Shown: positions 2,079-27,344 of the stretch, piece after piece
How the letters are laid out: each line of letters begins with the position of its first letter
How positions within the stretch are numbered: the stretch's first letter is position 1
Virus record (IMG/VR): IMGVR_UViG_3300009011_000036
Location: 1 to 34,966 of that record
DNA: 34,966 nucleotides
From: a virus
Reading direction: 5' to 3' (one strand)
Made by a program: the position numbers and the translations under genes
Notes under the pieces: generated by a model
Databases searched by the model: none
What the model was told of the DNA's origin: nothing
Seen by the model: the letters and a program-made list of their open reading frames with translations, nothing else

Positions 2079-3145
2079 ACCATCGGCACCAGGGTCAGGG
2101 TGCCCGGCCTGATCCAGCCGATCAGGGAGCTATCCGACGATGCTGCAACGTTTCCAGATGGAGATGTTACAGCCCGATCAGAAACGCCAGGCAGGCTGCT
2201 GATCATCGTTTCAATCTGGGACCGCCGCAGGCCCACTTTCGGTTTAAGCGTGCCCAGCAGTTCCTCGTATGCTTTCTGCGCTGAAACCTGAACCGCATCT
2301 AGTTCGTACCCATCCTCAAGCTCTACCTGCGCAATCGAGTCAACAACGCGCACAGTCGGCACGAACACCAATACGTCCGCATATACAGAGCACAGCGACT
2401 CGATGTGCGCCTGGCAGGCTTGGACAACGGTCGGCGACGGTAGGCCGCTACTTCCGGTGATGGCGATATCGACTGACCCGCCACCGCGACGTTTCGGCAG
2501 GACCAGCGCGTACGAGACTCCATCGACTTCTTTTGCCCAGCGCTCATAGTCGTAGTCGGCGCCACCTACCGGAGGTTTCCGCATCACGTCCAATAGGCGA
2601 GCTTCCAGGGAGTCCACAGTCTCCGCGTCTTCGCCACCTGTCGTTGCTGCGGAGAAACTTGCCGATGCGCTCATACCCAACGGCGGGCTTGTGAGTGTCA
2701 GGACGCCAGAGAGGTTATTGAGCTGTGAACCTGGGGTTTCTGCTCGGACCAAGACCGAAGCAAGGCCTACCGAACTCAACTTTACGTCGCTAACGGTCAA
2801 GAAAGCAGCGCCCGTCGCGGTATGTGTCAGGCGTGAGGATGCCAGCAACGTTACATCAGGCGTTCCAGTCAATTGGACTGGCCCCGTGGATGAGACAGCG
2901 TCCTTTAACGACAGACCGCGCAAGCCTGCTCCATGGATGACCTCTTCGTCGTCGGCTTCGTCAGGGAAGATCTGTCTATAGAGCCAAGCAAGCTTCTGAT
3001 AGTAGCCTTCCAGTGCCGCCGCAAATGACGCAGAACGCACGTAGTTATCGCTATCACTGCCGATGTCCGCCTCAGCATTCAAGTTGCGAATATCGCGCAA
3101 GATGTTGCTCAGTATCGCGTCGTAAGTCGGAACGGTGAGTGCCAT
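2075..3145 (-). CDS. Baseplate wedge protein J-like (Mu gp47)
   Basis: This 356-aa baseplate wedge protein has the length and pattern of the Baseplate_J family: N-terminal 'PTYDAILSNILRDIRNLNAE', a Gly-rich beta region, then 'TGGEDAETVDSLEARLLDVMRKPPVGGADYDYERWAKEVDG' at about residues 170-210 (quoted as motifs within that stretch). These proteins form the wedge ring around the hub in contractile tails. The start codon overlaps the gp46-like stop (TGATG), which indicates coupling. Confidence 0.92.
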   Translation of the reverse strand: MALTVPTYDAILSNILRDIRNLNAEADIGSDSDNYVRSASFAAALEGYYQKLAWLYRQIFPDEADDEEVIHGAGLRGLSLKDAVSSTGPVQLTGTPDVTLLASSRLTHTATGAAFLTVSDVKLSSVGLASVLVRAETPGSQLNNLSGVLTLTSPPLGMSASASFSAATTGGEDAETVDSLEARLLDVMRKPPVGGADYDYERWAKEVDGVSYALVLPKRRGGGSVDIAITGSSGLPSPTVVQACQAHIESLCSVYADVLVFVPTVRVVDSIAQVELEDGYELDAVQVSAQKAYEELLGTLKPKVGLRRSQIETMISSLPGVSDRAVTSPSGNVAASSDSSLIGWIRPGTLTLVPMV

Positions 3146-3495
3146 CAGATAACCCTTACAGGATGCTGAAATACTTCCTCGACGCCTGCGCTGTCGATCA
3201 CCGTGATCAGCAGAAGCAACCAGCCATTGTGGGACTGTTCAACGTCGACCAAAAAGGACGTGGCTCGCCCATCGTCAACCATCGGCTGTAGAGCCTCTGT
3301 TGCATATTGATTGGCAAGCTTGCCGACTCTGGATAGGTCCTTGGAGCGGCGCAGTAGGTACAAACGCGAGCCCAAAGTGGGATCGGCCCACCAGGAGCCG
3401 AGCGGCACGGTGAGCCGGAGATAAATGGCGTTGGCAAGCGTCTTAATACGCTTGCCAGTTAAGTCGCCTGATTTTGGGTCTATGCCTGCGTCCAT
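3145..3495 (-). CDS. Baseplate protein, Mu gp46 family (gp25/W-like)
   Basis: This 116-aa baseplate wedge component begins MDAGIDPKSGDLTGKRIKTL and continues with 'LRLTVPLGSWWADPTLGSRLYLLRR', the characteristic Mu gp46 pattern. The open frame extends upstream to 3642, but that part runs over the gp45 gene and lacks family similarity. I therefore place the start at the ATG at 3495, giving the usual family length. There is no convincing Shine-Dalgarno sequence in front of this ATG. A 31-codon frame fills the 76-base gap from gp45 and overlaps this start, so coupling to it is possible. Confidence 0.87.
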   Translation of the reverse strand: MDAGIDPKSGDLTGKRIKTLANAIYLRLTVPLGSWWADPTLGSRLYLLRRSKDLSRVGKLANQYATEALQPMVDDGRATSFLVDVEQSHNGWLLLLITVIDSAGVEEVFQHPVRVI

Positions 3496-3573
3496 TCGGG
3501 CATGATGGTGGAAGAGGTGATCGCTTGGTCTTTCTCGACCGTACAAACCACCCCTATGTTTAGTACCGCAATC
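3478..3573 (-). CDS. Possible 31-aa leader peptide ORF between gp45 and gp46
   Basis: A GTG codon overlapping the gp45 TGA stop opens a frame of 31 codons (MIAVLNIGVVCTVEKDQAIT then SSTIMPEWTQA). It ends with a TAG just inside gp46. It would bridge the only sizeable gap in this part of the baseplate operon. No Shine-Dalgarno sequence and no family are recognisable. It may simply be the coupling path for ribosomes, or chance. Confidence 0.25.
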
Positions 3574-4129
3574 ACATACTGATTGTGTCGCTTGAATTAG
3601 GGGAGATGCTACCTTGCGCGAGGATGTTTCCGCTGGCCCCAATGCTACCCGAAGTCACGATGTTGCCCTTCACTGCCAGCCCCTGTTCTACCGTTACCGT
3701 CCCGCTCGTTTCCAGCAAGGGCGTCTGGAACGATACCTTTTTGTTGGCTTTCACGATCAGCGTATCGGTCTCCACTTCGATCACCCGGCCGCGCTTGAGA
3801 TGCACCCTGTCTCCCTCGTCCGTGTACAGAGCGACCTCTCCATCTTTCAGCGTCAAACGATACCGACCATCTTCACTGGCCACGACCACAGCATGCTTAC
3901 TGTTCCCACCTACCGGGATACAGATGTACTCCGCACCGGCCAGCGGCGAGGACGTGAACCCATAGTGCTGGAACAACTCTCCCGCTACAGCCTCACCGGC
4001 CAGCCCCTGCATCTCCACCCCGGTCAGCTTTCCCTGATTCGAGCTGCTGGCCACCGCTCGAAATGCCTGACGCACGCTACTGCGCTCACGGGCTGCCTGC
4101 TCCCGCATCATCCGTCCTAATGTCTTCAC
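3572..4129 (-). CDS. Baseplate spike / assembly protein, Mu gp45 family (V-like)
   Basis: This 185-aa protein matches the Mu gp45 central spike family. It has an N-terminal helix 'RMMREQAARERSSVRQAFRA', an OB-fold-like region with 'GLAGEAVAGELFQHYGFTSSP' and 'GDRVHLKRGRVIEVE', and a C-terminal repetitive beta-helix with Gly/Ser-rich turns ('VKGNIVTSGSIGASGNILAQ') forming the membrane-piercing needle. The start is GTG at 4129, overlapping the gpP TAG stop by one base and preceded by GGGG at a good distance. It works with the gpP hub directly upstream. Confidence 0.9.
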   Translation of the reverse strand: MKTLGRMMREQAARERSSVRQAFRAVASSSNQGKLTGVEMQGLAGEAVAGELFQHYGFTSSPLAGAEYICIPVGGNSKHAVVVASEDGRYRLTLKDGEVALYTDEGDRVHLKRGRVIEVETDTLIVKANKKVSFQTPLLETSGTVTVEQGLAVKGNIVTSGSIGASGNILAQGSISPNSSDTISM

Positions 4130-5247
4130 TAAAGCCCCTTAACCATTTCGATAAATGCAGAGTCCGGGTTGTTCTTCCCTTTGTGTTTCTTCAGCTTGGC
4201 GCCGTCGAGCACCCACATCTTGTCTTCACGCAGCCGCAGTTCGGTGATCGCTCCCTGACTTCGCGTAAGTCGCAAAGTACGAGCCATCAGGAAGTAAATG
4301 GCGTTCAAACCATGAGGCTCGCTTCTGACCCTCACACGCTGACCCGGCGTCCATACGGAACCATTGCCGCAACGGTGCCCCTTCACAATCGCCCTTATTT
4401 CGAACCCCTCCAGCCGACTGTCAGCCAGCAGTTTGCGAGCGCGGGTGGTCGCCATGTCCTGGTTCTCGGTACTGCTGTCGACCACCACTTTAGGCCGGAA
4501 AATTCCTCGCTTGGCCAAGGTGTCGTCCTGGATCACAGATCGCAGGTGCGAGCGAGTGGTATCTAAACCGTCATTGTCATACTGACCGTGCTGACCGAGC
4601 AGGGTGATCTGACTGTATCGGTTGGCGATGGACCGGCGAACGCCAAGGCGCTCCACGTTGTTACCTTGACCGTCGCGGCTCAAGATCAGTTCGGCCACTG
4701 GTGGGGCCTCGTAGTTCGGACCACCAACGACCAGCGTGCCGTCGGGATCAAACCATGGCCACAGTCCGTTAGCCTCGGCGACCTGCATCAGCGCCTCCCA
4801 TGCAGATTGCCCTGGCTCGATCTGCACACGGCGACGTGACTTTGCCGTGTCCGTCTGGATGCTTATCTTGCTGATTCCCAGCGGCTTCACCACCAGGTTA
4901 ATGACCTCAGTCAGCGACGCCTCTCGCATCGATACGAATGGGCATGAGCAATCGACCAGAGCAGCAGCACCGTCGCGACCATTGATACGAATCGCGACGC
5001 CTTGGCGGTTCACGTCGTGCTCGAACTCGTCGACCTGGCCGGTCAACACTCGGTCACGACCAAGATTGAGGGTGCAGCTCGCTCCCTCTACTAGGACAGA
5101 TGGCAGAGAAACGGTGTCTTTGGCATAAAGCTCAAGTTCAAAAGCATCGGATGGCGTGAGCAAGTCCGACTCAACAGACCAGCCATCCCACGTTGCGTGG
5201 GTGAGTCCACCGATAGTCAGGGTAATAGCGTCACTTTGCGTAGGCAC
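4129..5247 (-). CDS. Baseplate hub protein gpP (late control D-like)
   Basis: This 372-aa protein corresponds to Mu gpP, the baseplate hub (gp27/gpD fold). Visible parts are an N-terminal beta barrel ('ITLTIGGLTHATWDGWSVES'), a middle 'GQSAWEALMQVAEANGLWPW' segment followed by 'FDPDGTLVVGG' (about residues 145-180), and a C-terminal barrel ending in a Lys-rich tail (KLKKHKGKNN). I choose the GTG at 5247 because GAGG lies six bases upstream. A GTG at 5259 is a possible alternative. The start falls inside the end of the gpN-like gene, consistent with coupling. Confidence 0.88.
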   Translation of the reverse strand: MPTQSDAITLTIGGLTHATWDGWSVESDLLTPSDAFELELYAKDTVSLPSVLVEGASCTLNLGRDRVLTGQVDEFEHDVNRQGVAIRINGRDGAAALVDCSCPFVSMREASLTEVINLVVKPLGISKISIQTDTAKSRRRVQIEPGQSAWEALMQVAEANGLWPWFDPDGTLVVGGPNYEAPPVAELILSRDGQGNNVERLGVRRSIANRYSQITLLGQHGQYDNDGLDTTRSHLRSVIQDDTLAKRGIFRPKVVVDSSTENQDMATTRARKLLADSRLEGFEIRAIVKGHRCGNGSVWTPGQRVRVRSEPHGLNAIYFLMARTLRLTRSQGAITELRLREDKMWVLDGAKLKKHKGKNNPDSAFIEMVKGL

Positions 5248-6559
5248 GGAGCACCTCACCTGGTTGGATGTTGTAGGGAGAGCCCAGACTCGGATTCAAT
5301 CGCGAAAGCTCGATGGCCCGCGAGTGGTCGCCGTACCAACGATGAGCGAGCACCCGCAAGCTTGCAGGCGATTCAACGGTGCGCTCGACCAGAGGCGGAC
5401 TGAGCAGGATCACAGAGCGTGCTCGGGCTTGGATCAGCCCGGCCATGGTGCGCAGAGCATCAATCACCGGAAGCGCGGTCTCCACACCGTACAGACGCCT
5501 GTGCAGCAGGATTGCCGACTCAATAAGCGACCTGGAAAGATTGACCAGTGACTCCAGATCGCCCGGACTAAGGGTCTGGGTGGCCGCTTCATCCTCAATA
5601 ACAGCAGACACGGCCTGCGCATTTGCCAGCGCTGTCTCAGTGACGATCAGAACCACCAGTGCCAAACTGGCCGCATCGACTGGGTCGGTGGGCATGCTGT
5701 CAGGGATCACTGAAGTATCTGGCTCACTGCCCTGCCTGGCACTGATGAGCAGCGCTGTACCAGCTCTTGATGCCTGCGCTGTCAAACTGGTGCTGCCCGG
5801 CACCGTGGCCGGGACACCGCCTCGGGACAGCAGCTCACGCGACGATGAGGGCGTGGTGTTCTGGATGACGGCGCGAATCTCAGTCGGCGTCCGGGCCAAG
5901 TCCACCAGCGGGTCGAATGCAGACAACGGATTGCTGGTGGCCATACTCACAACCTGCGACACCACACCCATGATCTGGCTACGCAGTTGCTGCAAGCGAA
6001 GGCCAATGCCTGGCAGCCCCAAGGCCTTCTCCATAAAGCCAGTCCAGCCGCCACCGATCCAACTTTGTATCTCAGTGACCAAGGAATCGATTTTGGCCAG
6101 CAGGTCAAAGAGTCCGTCCTGCCAGGTGGTCTCGTCCTCCGCATAAGCCGACCAAACAGCCGTCCATACAAGGTCACGATCAAAGAACGGCTCATCAGGT
6201 GTGTGCTCCACAAACTGGAGGGCCACTTCGGCATAGTCCGGGCGCTCGGCGGTGTGATGCACATTCATTGACCGAGTGACAACAGTAAGACTGCCGTAGA
6301 TGGGATGCACCAACTCACCCGGCCCTAGTACATCCAAGGCATCAAGCAACGCTCTTAGGTAGAACTCATAGTTTGGACCGTTGAAGATGACGCGCAGGGA
6401 GAACGCTCGGCCACCTCGCCCCAGATCCTCAGCCGAGTCACCTTGCTTGTAAGGCGTTCCATGCTGGCTAGTAAACCACTGAGCCTCTAAGTTTTCGTCC
6501 GCAACATCGAGAGGAATACCTCGAAAAGAGGCATCCAGCAAGTTCTCTTTCCAGCTCAA
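5231..6559 (-). CDS. DNA circularisation / tail protein gpN-like
   Basis: This 442-aa protein begins MSWKENLLDASFRGIPLDV and shows 'HGTPYKQGDSAEDLGRGGRA', the DNA_circ_N pattern of Mu gpN, a distal tail/baseplate protein in spite of the family name. The last 55 residues ('RVLAHRWYGDHSRAIELSRL..NP......IQPGEVLRAYA') look like a gpX/LysM-type tail module. The start is TTG at 6559, overlapping the tape-measure TGA (TTGA), and fits the conserved N-terminus. Expression is therefore probably coupled to the tape measure. Confidence 0.9.
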   Translation of the reverse strand: MSWKENLLDASFRGIPLDVADENLEAQWFTSQHGTPYKQGDSAEDLGRGGRAFSLRVIFNGPNYEFYLRALLDALDVLGPGELVHPIYGSLTVVTRSMNVHHTAERPDYAEVALQFVEHTPDEPFFDRDLVWTAVWSAYAEDETTWQDGLFDLLAKIDSLVTEIQSWIGGGWTGFMEKALGLPGIGLRLQQLRSQIMGVVSQVVSMATSNPLSAFDPLVDLARTPTEIRAVIQNTTPSSSRELLSRGGVPATVPGSTSLTAQASRAGTALLISARQGSEPDTSVIPDSMPTDPVDAASLALVVLIVTETALANAQAVSAVIEDEAATQTLSPGDLESLVNLSRSLIESAILLHRRLYGVETALPVIDALRTMAGLIQARARSVILLSPPLVERTVESPASLRVLAHRWYGDHSRAIELSRLNPSLGSPYNIQPGEVLRAYAK

Positions 6560-8775
6560 TTTCCACGCCTCACTTGAATATCAGTTCTGCGCTCAACTTC
6601 GGCTTGCACCATCTCAGAGTTAAGTCGCAGTTCTAAAACCAGCGGCTTATCGATCAATGAGCGCAATCGTTGTTCGGCCATGTTTTCTCCACCCTGTTGC
6701 AGTGGGCCAATACCTGCCTGAGTCAGGCGGCTCGCGGCGTTCTGCGCCCAACTAACAGCCCCCTGCGCAGATGTACCAGAAGAAGTGAGCCCGGTTTGTT
6801 GCATGGCCAAGCGCTGGGCTTGGCTGGAAAGCCAATCACTTGAGGCGTCCGGATTATTCTTGGCCAGATCAATGCGGTTTTGATAAAACGAGGTGTTATA
6901 AGCTTTCTGACCAGCCGTGCCCAACTTGGAGTTCTGAGCGGCCCGCAGCCGACCTTCATCTGTGTTCTGCGTAGAACCGCTGGTAAAACCACCAATGGCA
7001 GCCAGACTTACAAGCCCCCATGGAACTGGCGGAACAACTTTCGGCGTCTTGTTACCGACATCAGGAATTGGCGGGGTCATGCCTGTTGCTGGCCAGTTAG
7101 TAACAAATACCGAACTTACGCCCGTCGCTTCTTCCAACACTTTACCAACGGCAATATTTTTAAGAGTTTCAGGGCCACCCATAAACTTGTTGATAAGTGC
7201 GCCTGCACCCGCTGTAGCGCCGCGACCGGCAATATATCCACCAACACCAACAGCGGCACCACCCGCCAGCATCTGCTCACCCGAAAGATTTAAGTCATCG
7301 AGCAAGTAACTACCGAACTCCGCAAAACCTTTATTAAGAGGCTTGGCCATGCGGTCAATCGCCTCTCCCAAGGTTGCTTTAACTCGCGCCCCAGTACCGG
7401 TGGCACTCTCAACGTTATCTTTCAGGTCACTTTCAAAGATCGGCTTGGCGCCTTGAATGTCTTTTGATTGCTGTTTAAACGTGTCGAGCCTATTGCCGGT
7501 AAGCATGATTCGCATACCACGAATAGTGTCTTGGTCCATACCCTTGAACACGGCACCCATAAACTTTCCGCGCTGCTCGTCGGTTTTCATCCCGTCGTAC
7601 TTGCGTTTCAAATCCGCAAATACCTCCTCAGGGTTGCGCGACGCACCTTTTTTATCGAAGAAACTCACACCAGACGCTTTCGTGACTTGGTCACGATAAG
7701 TCTTGTTGCTGAATACCCGCAGGGTTGATTCGGCAAGCGTGCCCAGACGTTCGGGCTGCATCTCAACGGTCGATAGCGTCTCGGTAAATGCCAGGGCCTG
7801 CGACAGCGACATGCCCGCCTGCTGCGCTGCACCACCGATTTTCGGGAACAGATCGGCCAGGTTCTCCAACTCGGCGTTCCCCTGACGCCCGGCGACGGTC
7901 ATCTTTTGCAGCAGATCGAGCGCTACACCTGCTTGGTTTAGGTCGAGGTTAAAGGCGCTGGCACCGGCAACAACGGCTTTGCCCAGTACCGCCGAGTCGG
8001 CGCCAGTAACCGCCGTCGCCTGGCCGACTGCATCGGCGGTCTTCTTGGAGGCGCCGTAGTTCACACCCGAAGCGATCAAGGTATTGAAACCGCTATCCAC
8101 GTCGGTTCGGTCGAGGCCGTACTTCTTGGCAATCCGAAAACCTTCGTTGCGCCACTCTTCGCGCTCCGCGTTCGTCATGCCTGCTGTCTGCTGTGTTCGG
8201 ATCAGTGAGCGATCCAGCTTGGCACTACCCGTCAACCCGGCACCGACACCGACACCAATGCCCAATCCGGCCAGCTTGCCTTGTGCGCTCTGGCCGAAGT
8301 TCTTCAACCGGTTGAACTCATCACGCACCCCACCAGCCAATCGTTTGAGCAGACGCAGGTTGCTGCCGCCAGACTGAGCGAGACGGCGCATGCTGACTTC
8401 CGTCTTGTCGACAGACTGACGGAGCTGATCAGCACCCTCTTTGGCTGCTTTGGCCAGCTCGGTTTTGGTGTCCTGCGCGGCTTTGCGCCCAGCTTGGCCC
8501 ATGCTCTTCAACTCGGCACTAGTCTGGGTGACGCCCTGCCGGAATACGCCTTGCCCCTGCGCCGATTCACGCAACGCCTGGCGCACGATCTTGTAGCTCG
8601 CAGCACCCGTCTGAGCGGACCTATTGAGGGCCGCCCCAGTCTTGTTTGCCTCGTCGCCCAAGGCCTTCGCACCGTCTCTAGCGGTCTTTTTGAGGCTCTG
8701 CTCAAGGGCTTGAATTTCGCGACGACTGTTGCCGGAGGTCGCTTGAATCCGCAGGGCAACCCGTAAATCACTCAT
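6556..8775 (-). CDS. Tail tape measure protein
   Basis: At 739 aa this is the longest protein in the element. Its organisation is typical of a tape measure: a long N-terminal charged, Ala-rich coiled-coil zone (residues 1-150); a glycine-rich stretch near 165-185 (GIGVGVGAGLTGSA); the conserved PhageMin_Tail region ('ATAVTGADSAVLGKAVVAGA', 'LADLFPKIGGAAQQAGMSLS', about 250-330); and a hydrophobic Gly/Ala patch around 500-530. It sets tail length and is ejected with the DNA. TTGGAG precedes the ATG. An intrinsic terminator lies just upstream of the gene. Confidence 0.93.
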   Translation of the reverse strand: MSDLRVALRIQATSGNSRREIQALEQSLKKTARDGAKALGDEANKTGAALNRSAQTGAASYKIVRQALRESAQGQGVFRQGVTQTSAELKSMGQAGRKAAQDTKTELAKAAKEGADQLRQSVDKTEVSMRRLAQSGGSNLRLLKRLAGGVRDEFNRLKNFGQSAQGKLAGLGIGVGVGAGLTGSAKLDRSLIRTQQTAGMTNAEREEWRNEGFRIAKKYGLDRTDVDSGFNTLIASGVNYGASKKTADAVGQATAVTGADSAVLGKAVVAGASAFNLDLNQAGVALDLLQKMTVAGRQGNAELENLADLFPKIGGAAQQAGMSLSQALAFTETLSTVEMQPERLGTLAESTLRVFSNKTYRDQVTKASGVSFFDKKGASRNPEEVFADLKRKYDGMKTDEQRGKFMGAVFKGMDQDTIRGMRIMLTGNRLDTFKQQSKDIQGAKPIFESDLKDNVESATGTGARVKATLGEAIDRMAKPLNKGFAEFGSYLLDDLNLSGEQMLAGGAAVGVGGYIAGRGATAGAGALINKFMGGPETLKNIAVGKVLEEATGVSSVFVTNWPATGMTPPIPDVGNKTPKVVPPVPWGLVSLAAIGGFTSGSTQNTDEGRLRAAQNSKLGTAGQKAYNTSFYQNRIDLAKNNPDASSDWLSSQAQRLAMQQTGLTSSGTSAQGAVSWAQNAASRLTQAGIGPLQQGGENMAEQRLRSLIDKPLVLELRLNSEMVQAEVERRTDIQVRRGN

Positions 8776-9103: not shown

Positions 9104-9596
9104 CGCTTCTTTTTCCCCCTCGCGACGTACCTGGACGTGTTCTTCTTGCGGCCCAGCAGAAGATCGATACGGGTATCAATCTCCGGCCGGGTCATGTTGC
9201 GGATCTCGTCTAGGCGGTAGCCGTGGCGGACGAGTCCGTGCTCAATTTTTCGCCAGTCGAGGGTGCTGCCTCGCTCGGCAGCGCGAGCTTTTTTTCCAGC
9301 GCCTCGTCCGCTTCAGCAAGGGTCGCCAGATCCACCTCGGCCAATTGCTCCAGGAGCAGCTCAGTAGTCAGCGAGTCCAGAGGAATGTCGCCCAGCGACA
9401 GCAACTGGCGGCGATAGGCCTCGACCGTGATCAACTGGAGCGGGCCTTGGGGGTGAAGCTGCTGGGCAACGACCATGTCACCGGCCACCGGCACACGAAG
9501 GGTAAACGTCTTGTGACGACTCCCCGCGAACAGCACACCGATACGCAGTTGGCCGGTGGTGGTCAGGCCATCCCAAGCTTTGGAAGAAGCGGTCAT
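9100..9596 (-). CDS. Tail assembly chaperone, -1 frameshift fusion product
   Basis: In the zero frame the gene (9596 to 9210) contains the heptamer A AAA AAG at 9294 down to 9288, in the correct phase (GAA AAA AAG). A -1 shift there leaves a frame that stays open for 62 more codons and stops at the TGA at 9102..9100, overlapping the next ATG. The predicted fusion is about 165 aa with a very basic end (DLLLGRKKNTSRYVARGKKK). Such paired products, as in lambda G/GT and Mu gp41/gp42, coat the tape measure while the tube forms. The shift efficiency cannot be read from the sequence. Confidence 0.75.
9210..9596 (-). CDS. Tail assembly chaperone, zero-frame product
   Basis: This 128-aa protein sits between tail tube and tape measure, the fixed place of the tail assembly chaperone. 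The N-terminal beta-rich part ('GVLFAGSRHKTFTLRVPVAG', 'PLQLITVEAYRRQLLSLGDI') is followed by an acidic helix (LLLEQLAEVDLATLAEADEA). The tail after the slippery run is Ser/Thr/Ala-rich and low in complexity (SEAAPSTGEKLSTDSSATAT). That pattern is usual where the short form simply runs on to a stop while the shifted form carries the functional extension. Confidence 0.82.
   Translation of the reverse strand: MTASSKAWDGLTTTGQLRIGVLFAGSRHKTFTLRVPVAGDMVVAQQLHPQGPLQLITVEAYRRQLLSLGDIPLDSLTTELLLEQLAEVDLATLAEADEALEKKLALPSEAAPSTGEKLSTDSSATATA
9288..9294 (-). other. Slippery heptamer A AAA AAG (-1 frameshift site)
   Basis: Seven A residues followed by G on the - strand (9295 down to 9288) are read as GAA AAA AAG in the chaperone frame. 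This gives the A AAA AAG heptamer, one of the most efficient -1 sites in bacteria, as in dnaX. The following GC-rich segment (CTCGCGCTGCCGAGCGAG) contains a possible stem (CTCG...CGAG) that could stimulate shifting. Confidence 0.75.
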
Positions 9597-25868: not shown

Positions 25869-26549
25869 TTAGTTCAGCAGTGGCCGTGTCTCTGCGCCCA
25901 TTCCTTGATTCAGGGTTACGCTTGCTGCGGCTTCAATCCCCGAAAGAACATCGTTTGACGCTCGCTGACTCGGCTTCGTGTCGGCATTACGGTTCCGAGA
26001 TTCCAGCTTTCCAAGTTCTGGATATTGCTTTGCCATGTACGCATCGATAGCCGCTTGAGGCTTTACACCGGCGAACGCATGAACTTTTTCCCAAACTGCC
26101 TGAACCCAACCATTGCAAAACAGATCTGCTCTCTTGGTTTTGGTAGCAGTCTTACAACGCTTTAACTTGTCAGCGATGTAGCTATTCCGGGCTTTGCGAA
26201 CTTCGCGCAGCAAAATCGACATGGTGTAACTGGCAATCTCTGGTCCTGGAGCTACACCGATAAACTTCCAGTTACCCGCACTCCAAGTCTCTTGAAACAG
26301 CAGATGGCACCCGAACGCTTTAGAAACAAGGTTGGCCAGTGATGTTTCCCAACTCGCTGGGCGACTCTTTGCACCAGACCGACAGCCTTCCTCTGTTGCT
26401 TCGGCGGCCAGCAAGTCCGCTGAATCGACTTGAAACTTTTCCATCAAGGCTTGCGCCTGACGCATGGCTGCTGCGGCTTCATGCGGATTACTGCTCCCGG
26501 CTAATGCAAGACACTTCCGGATTTTCTCAATCGCTTTGTTCTGATCCAT
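25869..26549 (-). CDS. DUF2786 family protein
   Basis: This 226-aa protein begins MDQNKAIEKIRKCLALAGSS, followed by 'NPHEAAAAMRQAQALMEKFQ', the DUF2786 signature (residues 1-45). The middle has 'GCHLLFQETWSAGNWKFIGV' and 'LREVRKARNSYIADKLKRCK', typical of the longer DUF2786 phage proteins. The function is not known. The ATG at 26549 has AGGAG six bases upstream and follows copy B of the double-hairpin element. It precedes GemA by 30 bases. Confidence 0.85.
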   Translation of the reverse strand: MDQNKAIEKIRKCLALAGSSNPHEAAAAMRQAQALMEKFQVDSADLLAAEATEEGCRSGAKSRPASWETSLANLVSKAFGCHLLFQETWSAGNWKFIGVAPGPEIASYTMSILLREVRKARNSYIADKLKRCKTATKTKRADLFCNGWVQAVWEKVHAFAGVKPQAAIDAYMAKQYPELGKLESRNRNADTKPSQRASNDVLSGIEAAASVTLNQGMGAETRPLLN

Positions 26550-26621
26550 TGGCTGCTCCTCAGTACCGGACAACCACGCCCGGCAGACCTAACCCCAGCA
26601 GGGAATTAGGTTTCGCGGGAA
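26550..26621 (-). repeat. Double-hairpin element, copy B
   Basis: This exactly 72-base gap reads on the - strand GCGAAACC, stem 1 (ACCTAA...CCC-TGCT-GGG...TTAGGT), GTCTG, stem 2 (CCGGGC-GTGGTT-GTCCGG), TACTGAGGAGCAGCC and then the ATG. Its flanks and second stem match copy A, but the first stem has different paired bases. It probably acts in the mRNA. Confidence 0.75.
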
Positions 26622-27035
26622 TCAATGCAGGCGAGAAATATCTTTGTTGTTTGTGATCAGGTGTTTTTTCAGTGCGGGGAAACTTCGCCATTCCCAGTCA
26701 TAGGTAAAGAACTTCGTCGCCTCCATCTCCGAAGCTTTTCGCTTACCGAATACTTTCCGATAGGCTTCGATTTCTTTCTTGCTGCGCACACTCCTCGTGA
26801 CCTTGCGCAAGAACCGCCGTGTTTCTTCATGCTTAGGCTCGCCGGTTCGGTTATCGCAGGAAAGCCAAATGCCTTTGAGATAACCATCTATATAAACAAG
26901 GGTTCCCCAAGTCTTTTTGCCATGGCTGATGGTCTGCACCAAACCAACTTCGAAGTTGTCGCACTTCAGTTTCATTGAGCCGTACGGACTTTCCATCTGT
27001 GCCTTCAGCTCATCCCAATCCGCCTGTTCCATCAT
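26622..27035 (-). CDS. Unknown early protein between two double-hairpin elements
   Basis: I do not recognise this 137-aa, strongly basic protein: MMEQADWDELKAQMESPYGS, 'KLKCDNFEVGLVQTISHGKK', 'TWGTLVYIDGYLKGIWLSCD', then a Lys/Arg-rich helix ('RRFLRKVTRSVRSKKEIEAY'). The first half looks like a small beta sheet and the second like a nucleic-acid-binding helix pair. GAGGAA precedes the ATG. A structured 72-base spacer sits on either side of the gene, unlike the overlapping genes elsewhere. It may therefore have been inserted or be regulated as a unit. Confidence 0.72.
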   Translation of the reverse strand: MMEQADWDELKAQMESPYGSMKLKCDNFEVGLVQTISHGKKTWGTLVYIDGYLKGIWLSCDNRTGEPKHEETRRFLRKVTRSVRSKKEIEAYRKVFGKRKASEMEATKFFTYDWEWRSFPALKKHLITNNKDISRLH

Positions 27036-27107
27036 TTCCTCGGCTGCTCGTCAGTACCGGGCAACCACGCCCGGCAGACCGCCCCGGTTTCCCGAGGCGG
27101 TTTCGCG
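27036..27107 (-). repeat. Double-hairpin element, copy A
   Basis: This exactly 72-base gap reads on the - strand GCGAAACC, stem 1 (ACCGCC...CGG-GAAA-CCG...GGCGGT), GTCTG, stem 2 (CCGGGC-GTGGTT-GCCCGG), TACTGACGAGCAGCCGAGGAA and then the ATG. It shares about 45 bases with copy B, and the stem 1 differences keep pairing. The ribosome site follows stem 2 closely. Confidence 0.75.
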
Positions 27108-27344
27108 TTAGTGAAGGGTTGGCTTGAGAATCAGCTTCTCGCGCATTGCCATGCAGATATCGCAGTCGCAGCCACCAACGTGACGCTCAGCGGTTTCCAG
27201 CGGCAGACGGGCAATCAGCCGGGCGCTCTGCACCATCGCTGTCGCGACACGGCCAGCTTTGCTGTTGTGGATCTGTGCTTGGTTATCAACGGAGATGGAA
27301 ACGCCATCGGTGCTGTCTTCTACAACGATTTGGAACTTGCTCAT
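27108..27344 (-). CDS. Unknown early protein with a Cys cluster
   Basis: This 78-aa protein begins MSKFQIVVEDSTDGVSISVD, continues 'NSKAGRVATAMVQSARLIAR' and ends with a cysteine cluster 'GGCDCDICMAMREK' that could bind a metal or be a redox motif. The family is not recognised. It lies 53 bases after the DUF3164 gene and directly before copy A of the double-hairpin element. Confidence 0.72.
   Translation of the reverse strand: MSKFQIVVEDSTDGVSISVDNQAQIHNSKAGRVATAMVQSARLIARLPLETAERHVGGCDCDICMAMREKLILKPTLH

Follow-up and report, generated by a model that had tools for sequence, protein, structure and literature searches.

Type II hammerhead ribozymes flank a small gene upstream of gemA-mor in a Mu-like phage: a proposed role in cutting the early message

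The locus and its genes

The window analyzed here is the whole of IMG/VR virus record IMGVR_UViG_3300009011_000036, a stretch of 34,966 nucleotides that represents a Mu-like, Pseudomonas-type phage and encodes a Mu-type transposase, a transposition ATPase, GemA and Mor. The operon under study and its two similar RNA elements (copy 1 and copy 2, the ribozymes described below) are encoded on the minus strand, and the gene order is phrog_3652, ribozyme 1, phrog_5671, ribozyme 2, a DUF2786 protein (phrog_421), GemA and Mor. The genes and complete elements are as follows.

27108..27344, minus strand: gene before copy 1, a weak phrog_3652 match; the first base of the element falls within its TAA stop
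27038..27108, minus strand: type II hammerhead ribozyme copy 1 (Rfam RF02276, 69.4 bits, E 1.2e-12)
26622..27032, minus strand: gene between the ribozymes, phrog_5671 (PHROG function unknown; E 2.1e-30), 136 aa; the open reading frame call starts at 27035
26547..26618, minus strand: type II hammerhead ribozyme copy 2 (Rfam RF02276, 52.9 bits, E 2.5e-8)
25869..26549, minus strand: gene after copy 2, a DUF2786 / DUF7168 protein (phrog_421), from PHROG and Pfam matches

The flanked phrog_5671 protein had no Pfam match and its AlphaFold2 model (mean pLDDT 69) was too weak for a fold search; the family was present in 3 of 299 genomes in a genus search, a number that could not broaden the test. A first-pass annotation, made from the sequence, had described the gaps on both sides of this gene as exactly 72 bases long. 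The length holds for the downstream gap (26550-26621), where the DUF2786 gene must start at ATG 26549 because residue 5 is already the first of the DUF2786 domain, but the upstream one (given as 27036-27107) is probably 75 bases long, since homologues of the middle protein begin MEQADWDE, which places its start at the second ATG (27032).

Identity of the two elements

The two elements that flank the small gene are, with hardly any doubt, type II hammerhead ribozymes. The Rfam search that the first-pass annotation had called for placed both in RF02276 (Hammerhead_II), well known as a self-cleaving class, and thus they are not an unknown leader structure; both scores exceed the gathering threshold of the family (37 bits), and against a covariance model built in this analysis copy 1 and copy 2 reached 82.8 and 69.3 bits, respectively. 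These were the only two matches when the whole window was scanned with cmscan. No other Rfam family was matched in the window up to E = 1, by which a riboswitch or another known leader was ruled out, and a control scan of 14 well-known genomes returned 0 matches; with the E-values given above, the two elements lie well outside what chance would produce. A third candidate at 5659-5758 (plus strand), matched by the covariance model with 18 bits and E 0.011, was taken as a probable chance match.

In both copies the core strands GAA(A) and CUGANGA are intact, a GUC cleavage triplet (NUH type) stands between stem III and stem I, and stems I and III are closed by loops. Stem II is open and consists of 2 bp, GC before GAAA with GC after CUGANGA, and loop I forms a pseudoknot with the 3' tail (UGGUU with AGCCA/G). 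Reading the hammerhead core onto the sequence placed the parts as listed here.

27101..27104, minus strand: copy 1 core strand GAAA (G12-A13-A14 plus A15.1), by core alignment
27078..27101, minus strand: copy 1 stem III hairpin, 10 bp, 27101-27092 with 27087-27078, by fold and covariation
27076..27077, minus strand: copy 1 predicted cleavage after C17 (27077), with the 3' product from 27076; GUC by core alignment
27055..27076, minus strand: copy 1 stem I hairpin, 9 bp, by fold and covariation
27048..27054, minus strand: copy 1 core strand CUGACGA, by sequence and core alignment
27041..27045, minus strand: copy 1 pseudoknot 3' strand AGCCG, partner of loop I UGGUU, by pair counts and compensatory changes in relatives
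27038..27041, minus strand: Shine-Dalgarno GAGG of the middle gene, adjoining and overlapping the pseudoknot strand, by sequence
26611..26614, minus strand: copy 2 core strand GAAA, by core alignment
26587..26611, minus strand: copy 2 stem III hairpin, in sequence unlike that of copy 1, by core alignment and fold
26585..26586, minus strand: copy 2 predicted cleavage after C17 (26586), with the 3' product from 26585, by core alignment
26564..26585, minus strand: copy 2 stem I hairpin, 9 bp, with a G-U pair, by core alignment and fold
26557..26563, minus strand: copy 2 core strand CUGAGGA, with N7 = G, by core alignment
26556..26561, minus strand: GAGGAG within the copy 2 core, 6 nt before ATG 26549
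26550..26554, minus strand: copy 2 pseudoknot 3' strand AGCCA, which abuts the start codon, by sequence
26586..27076, minus strand: predicted excised RNA of 491 nt with one gene, a 5'-OH and a 2',3'-cyclic phosphate, as implied by the two cleavage sites

Much of what had been noticed earlier finds its place in this structure. The blocks GCGAAACC, GTCTGCCGGGCGTGGTTG and GAGCAGCC occur in both copies on the minus strand, the last of them comprising stem II and the pseudoknot strand that pairs with loop I. The first of the two hairpins described at the outset is stem III, fully paired in both copies in spite of the different sequences (ACCGCC/GGCGGT versus ACCTAA/TTAGGT). The other one, stem I, keeps its pairing through the G-U. 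Stem II, the pseudoknot and the catalytic core had been missed; the first two of these connect the hairpins with their flanks.

Relatives and covariation

Related copies were gathered by a pattern scan of IMG/VR and by protein-based searches, and the descriptor scan yielded 160 distinct ribozymes. The pattern fixed part of stem I and the tail, and the fair evidence is therefore provided by the positions that it left unforced and by the loci found through proteins. Positions left free by the descriptor paired far above shuffled controls (stem I pair 5 in 157/160 copies versus 68 expected). When the structure including the pseudoknot was assessed in an alignment of 114 sequences, 94.8% of the pair cells were paired, whereas shuffles reached 78.8% and slid controls 29-48%, and 15 of the 21 pairs had changed on both sides. 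The pseudoknot had both-side changes in 3 of its 5 pairs, with 84% of its cells paired; stem II was nearly invariant and displayed no covariation in the alignment of relatives. The core strand GAAA was invariant across the 114 relatives, C17 was present in 160/160, and the catalytic core together with the cleavage nucleotide was kept in 160/160 distinct copies, partly by search selection. The original suggestion of a conserved, covarying RNA structure directly before ribosome sites, which depended on the existence of further covarying copies, is thus supported by more than 100 of them.

An extension of stem II into the upstream CAC-stop codon was considered and rejected, as positions 11.3 and 11.4 paired in 28/160 and 24/160 copies, no better than shuffles. 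In the printed RF02276 consensus stem II seems to be one column off, with 0/160 copies paired there and 160/160 in the C11.1-G10.1 register.

The relatives are mostly transposable phages and the named hosts are Pseudomonas and Stutzerimonas. They include the laboratory phages JBD30 and D3112, with a type II hammerhead at 9394-9465 and 9439-9510, respectively, and in four named whole genomes there are 2 ribozymes apiece, all within this locus. An array of eleven type II hammerheads on one strand was observed in another phage, L032 (IMGVR_UViG_3300017605_000570, 2817-6749, minus strand), mostly with one ribozyme before each small gene and a spacing of 243-389 nt; most of the gene products are without PHROG match and the pseudoknots include C-G for G-C swaps.

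Position of the ribozymes relative to genes

A ribozyme was found directly upstream in 34/34 relatives of the flanked phrog_5671 gene that had been located by protein (with a few genomes counted twice because two collections contain them). The covariance model of this analysis detected an upstream ribozyme on the same strand in 76 of 78 loci found through GemA, which represent the closest GemA relatives and not all GemA; the two others (L274 and L280) have less than 120 bases of upstream sequence. In close relatives the link between the ribozyme and these Mu-like genes is strict: no gemA-mor locus with enough sequence lacks an upstream ribozyme. Loci found through the DUF2786 protein contained a ribozyme in 48/80 cases, and so the link is with this locus and not with DUF2786 as such.

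The fit between ribozyme and genes is close. In 95 of the 166 cases scored, the stop codon of the preceding gene reaches exactly to the 5' edge of stem II, a point 2 nt short of GAAA. At the opposite end the element extends over the ribosome site: a GAGG ribosome site often follows directly 3' of the pseudoknot strand in the relatives, nearly all of which are alike in having GAGG(A) at the Shine-Dalgarno position of the flanked gene. The non-coding gap from stop codon to ribosome site is essentially the ribozyme. Upstream genes of families c2, c3, c5, c6 and c10 end in His-stop (CAY TRA) at the ribozyme, for example at 27108-27113 (minus strand); no pairing partner for these ends was found.

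Three cassettes, phrog_5671, DUF2786 and a 92-aa gene, occur singly or combined, always in one order; the first of them is preceded by a ribozyme and later ones may be as well. The phrog_5671 gene varies at its 3' end according to what comes next. At many other gene junctions in these operons there is no ribozyme, even at later ones between the same cassettes, which argues that not every gene needs a message of its own. Immediately past the start codon behind the ribozyme, D3112 differs from JBD30 (L172 2511-2640, D3112 orf17 region), and the annotated start of D3112 orf17 lies about 110 nt further on than this start codon.

Proposed role: cutting of the early message

By established chemistry, a hammerhead cut produces one end with a 5'-OH and another with a 2',3'-cyclic phosphate. 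The sequence, structure, covariation and position of the elements are shown directly; cleavage in this phage, and effects on RNA stability and translation, we infer. The reading preferred here, to which a probability of roughly 0.6 is assigned, is that the ribozymes cut the polycistronic early mRNA and leave each new end with a protective hairpin. Each hammerhead would fold on the nascent RNA and cut itself after its GUC, parting the message into the upstream early genes, a 491-nt monocistronic phrog_5671 piece and a DUF2786-gemA-mor message. Since the type II cut falls between two intact hairpins, both new ends would keep one. Just past its stop codon, the upstream product would terminate in the stem III hairpin and carry the 2',3'-cyclic phosphate, and the downstream product, with its 5'-OH, would have the 9-bp stem I hairpin from nucleotide 1 and the ribosome site at once behind it; stem I of copy 1 would thereby form the 5' end of the middle-gene mRNA. 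The terminal hairpins of both products are predicted to be stable. In this way message ends may be standardized and protected and the ribosome site freed from the ribozyme fold, and the cassette gene(s) and gemA-mor would obtain their own messages. The layout of type II, with a hairpin on both new ends, offers a concrete reason why this permutation would suit mRNA cutting.

Protection of the messages by the surviving hairpins is something we infer by analogy. In E. coli, RiboJ, a cleaved hammerhead with a 5' hairpin, gave about twofold more transcript and a two- to tenfold increase in protein (PMC6206723). It was also used in a Pseudomonas study. Cleavage in vitro is fast for type II hammerheads with the pseudoknot described here; it was also found for clustered prophage hammerheads, those of Agrobacterium being active in E. 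coli as well (Perreault et al., 2011; PMC3088659).

A core that may serve as ribosome site

Core position N7 of copy 2 is G, a base that within the set is shared only with the close relative L017. Because of it CUGAGGAGC provides, six bases ahead of the AUG, a GAGGAG that is the only plausible Shine-Dalgarno for the DUF2786 gene, and from its sequence the catalytic core of copy 2 appears to double as Shine-Dalgarno sequence. A purine at N7 occurs in 4/30 copies where the start lies at most 19 nt from C3 versus 1/132 elsewhere (Fisher p 0.004, uncorrected for relatedness). A competing hairpin, in which UCC pairs with GGA of the Shine-Dalgarno, is predicted in both known copies. For copy 2 alone, a competing fold was 3.6 kcal/mol more stable in RNAfold than the hammerhead scored without its pseudoknot, a feature that the program cannot score; since the competing fold is predicted to be more stable, copy 2 may cleave less well.

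Tentatively, and with rather less confidence than cutting itself, copy 2 can be pictured as a self-contained cut-to-translate switch, in which folding and ribosome binding would be exclusive and cleavage would turn on translation of DUF2786. If so, removal of the GAAA strand by self-cleavage would start translation of this gene, and the UCC-GGA hairpin, a modeled structure, could be the off state.

Alternative explanations

The ribozymes might instead lower expression by destabilizing one or both products, limiting the output of gemA-mor or timing the switch from early to middle genes. We regard this as unlikely, although it is the strongest of the alternatives: a site between the early genes and gemA-mor, seen in all gemA loci whose upstream sequence is long enough, would suit such a control, and glmS is a known case in which a ribozyme controls expression and lowers its mRNA (cited in PMC3088659). 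Unlike glmS-type regulated ribozymes, however, the elements described here have no ligand site, metabolite-binding fold or extra regulatory domain, and the ribozyme fills the whole gap. Strong hairpins on both new ends also argue against destabilization, and RiboJ, the nearest engineered precedent, raises expression (PMC6206723).

That the ribozymes act mainly as repeated recombination boundaries for small cassettes, with cutting incidental, would agree with the single or combined occurrence of the phrog_5671, DUF2786 and 92-aa cassettes between ribozymes in fixed order, and with the variable 3' end of the phrog_5671 gene. This is improbable given how the copies have diverged: stems III and I drift while pairing persists, which indicates selection on structure and not on DNA identity, and the two copies of a genome often differ, with mostly intact cores at low DNA identity.

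Slightly less probable still is that the host RtcB closes the excised RNA into a circular phrog_5671 mRNA or that the outer pieces are rejoined. The layout resembles Tornado, in which coding RNA between two ribozymes is circularized by native RtcB in E. coli (PMC12628768), but either product would, judging from the sequence, rebuild a complete type II hammerhead from the GAAA of one copy and the CUGANGA of the other, and should therefore cut again. Many relatives have only a single ribozyme, and spliced or circular products were sought by Perreault et al. and none were found (PMC3088659). Finally, a non-catalytic conserved leader hairpin that acts on translation alone, although compatible with a site directly before ribosome sites, is very improbable in view of the conservation of core and cleavage nucleotide (160/160, partly by search selection) and of the cleavage of family members in vitro (PMC3088659).

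Comparison with known systems

Cutting of the early message, the preferred reading, has precedents. Type II hammerheads, their pseudoknot and their occurrence as pairs or clusters that flank prophage genes were described in 2011, when the processing of long phage transcripts was already proposed (Perreault et al., 2011; PMC3088659), and enrichment near Mu-like phage genes was stated in 2023, the reason being given as still unknown (PMC10085705). The elements share with that class (RF02276; PMC3088659) the core, the GUC, closed stems I and III, the open 2-bp stem II, the pseudoknot and the occurrence in prophages, without essential difference; copy 2 departs from it by the rare N7 = G, with which the core becomes GAGGAG. 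In the clustered prophage hammerheads (ardA region of Agrobacterium, Azorhizobium, Clostridium scindens), several ribozymes on the same strand likewise flank a single gene or short block (PMC3088659). Here two coding-strand ribozymes flank phrog_5671 in a Mu-like phage. The paired prophage arrangement is already known and the window pair is a further example, whereas the fixed locus, before gemA-mor of Mu-like phages and with a defined set of cassettes, sets it apart. New are the strict position upstream of phrog_5671 relatives and gemA, the stop-to-start fit and the reading of end protection, together with the variant in which the core would act as ribosome site and the eleven-ribozyme array in L032. 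With a ribozyme present in JBD30 and D3112, the question of the role of phage hammerheads can be tested directly.

Two engineered systems resemble parts of the arrangement. Tornado (PMC12628768) has in common a coding RNA between two self-cleaving ribozymes; in the phage there is no sign of a design for ligation, and rejoined ends would reconstitute a cutting hammerhead. RiboJ (PMC6206723) is alike in a hammerhead cut upstream of a ribosome site and a hairpin at the new 5' end, and the phage ribozymes may be a natural counterpart of this insulator. RiboJ derives from sTRSV and carries an added 23-nt hairpin, whereas the type II ribozymes use their own stem I and the upstream message would also receive a terminal hairpin.
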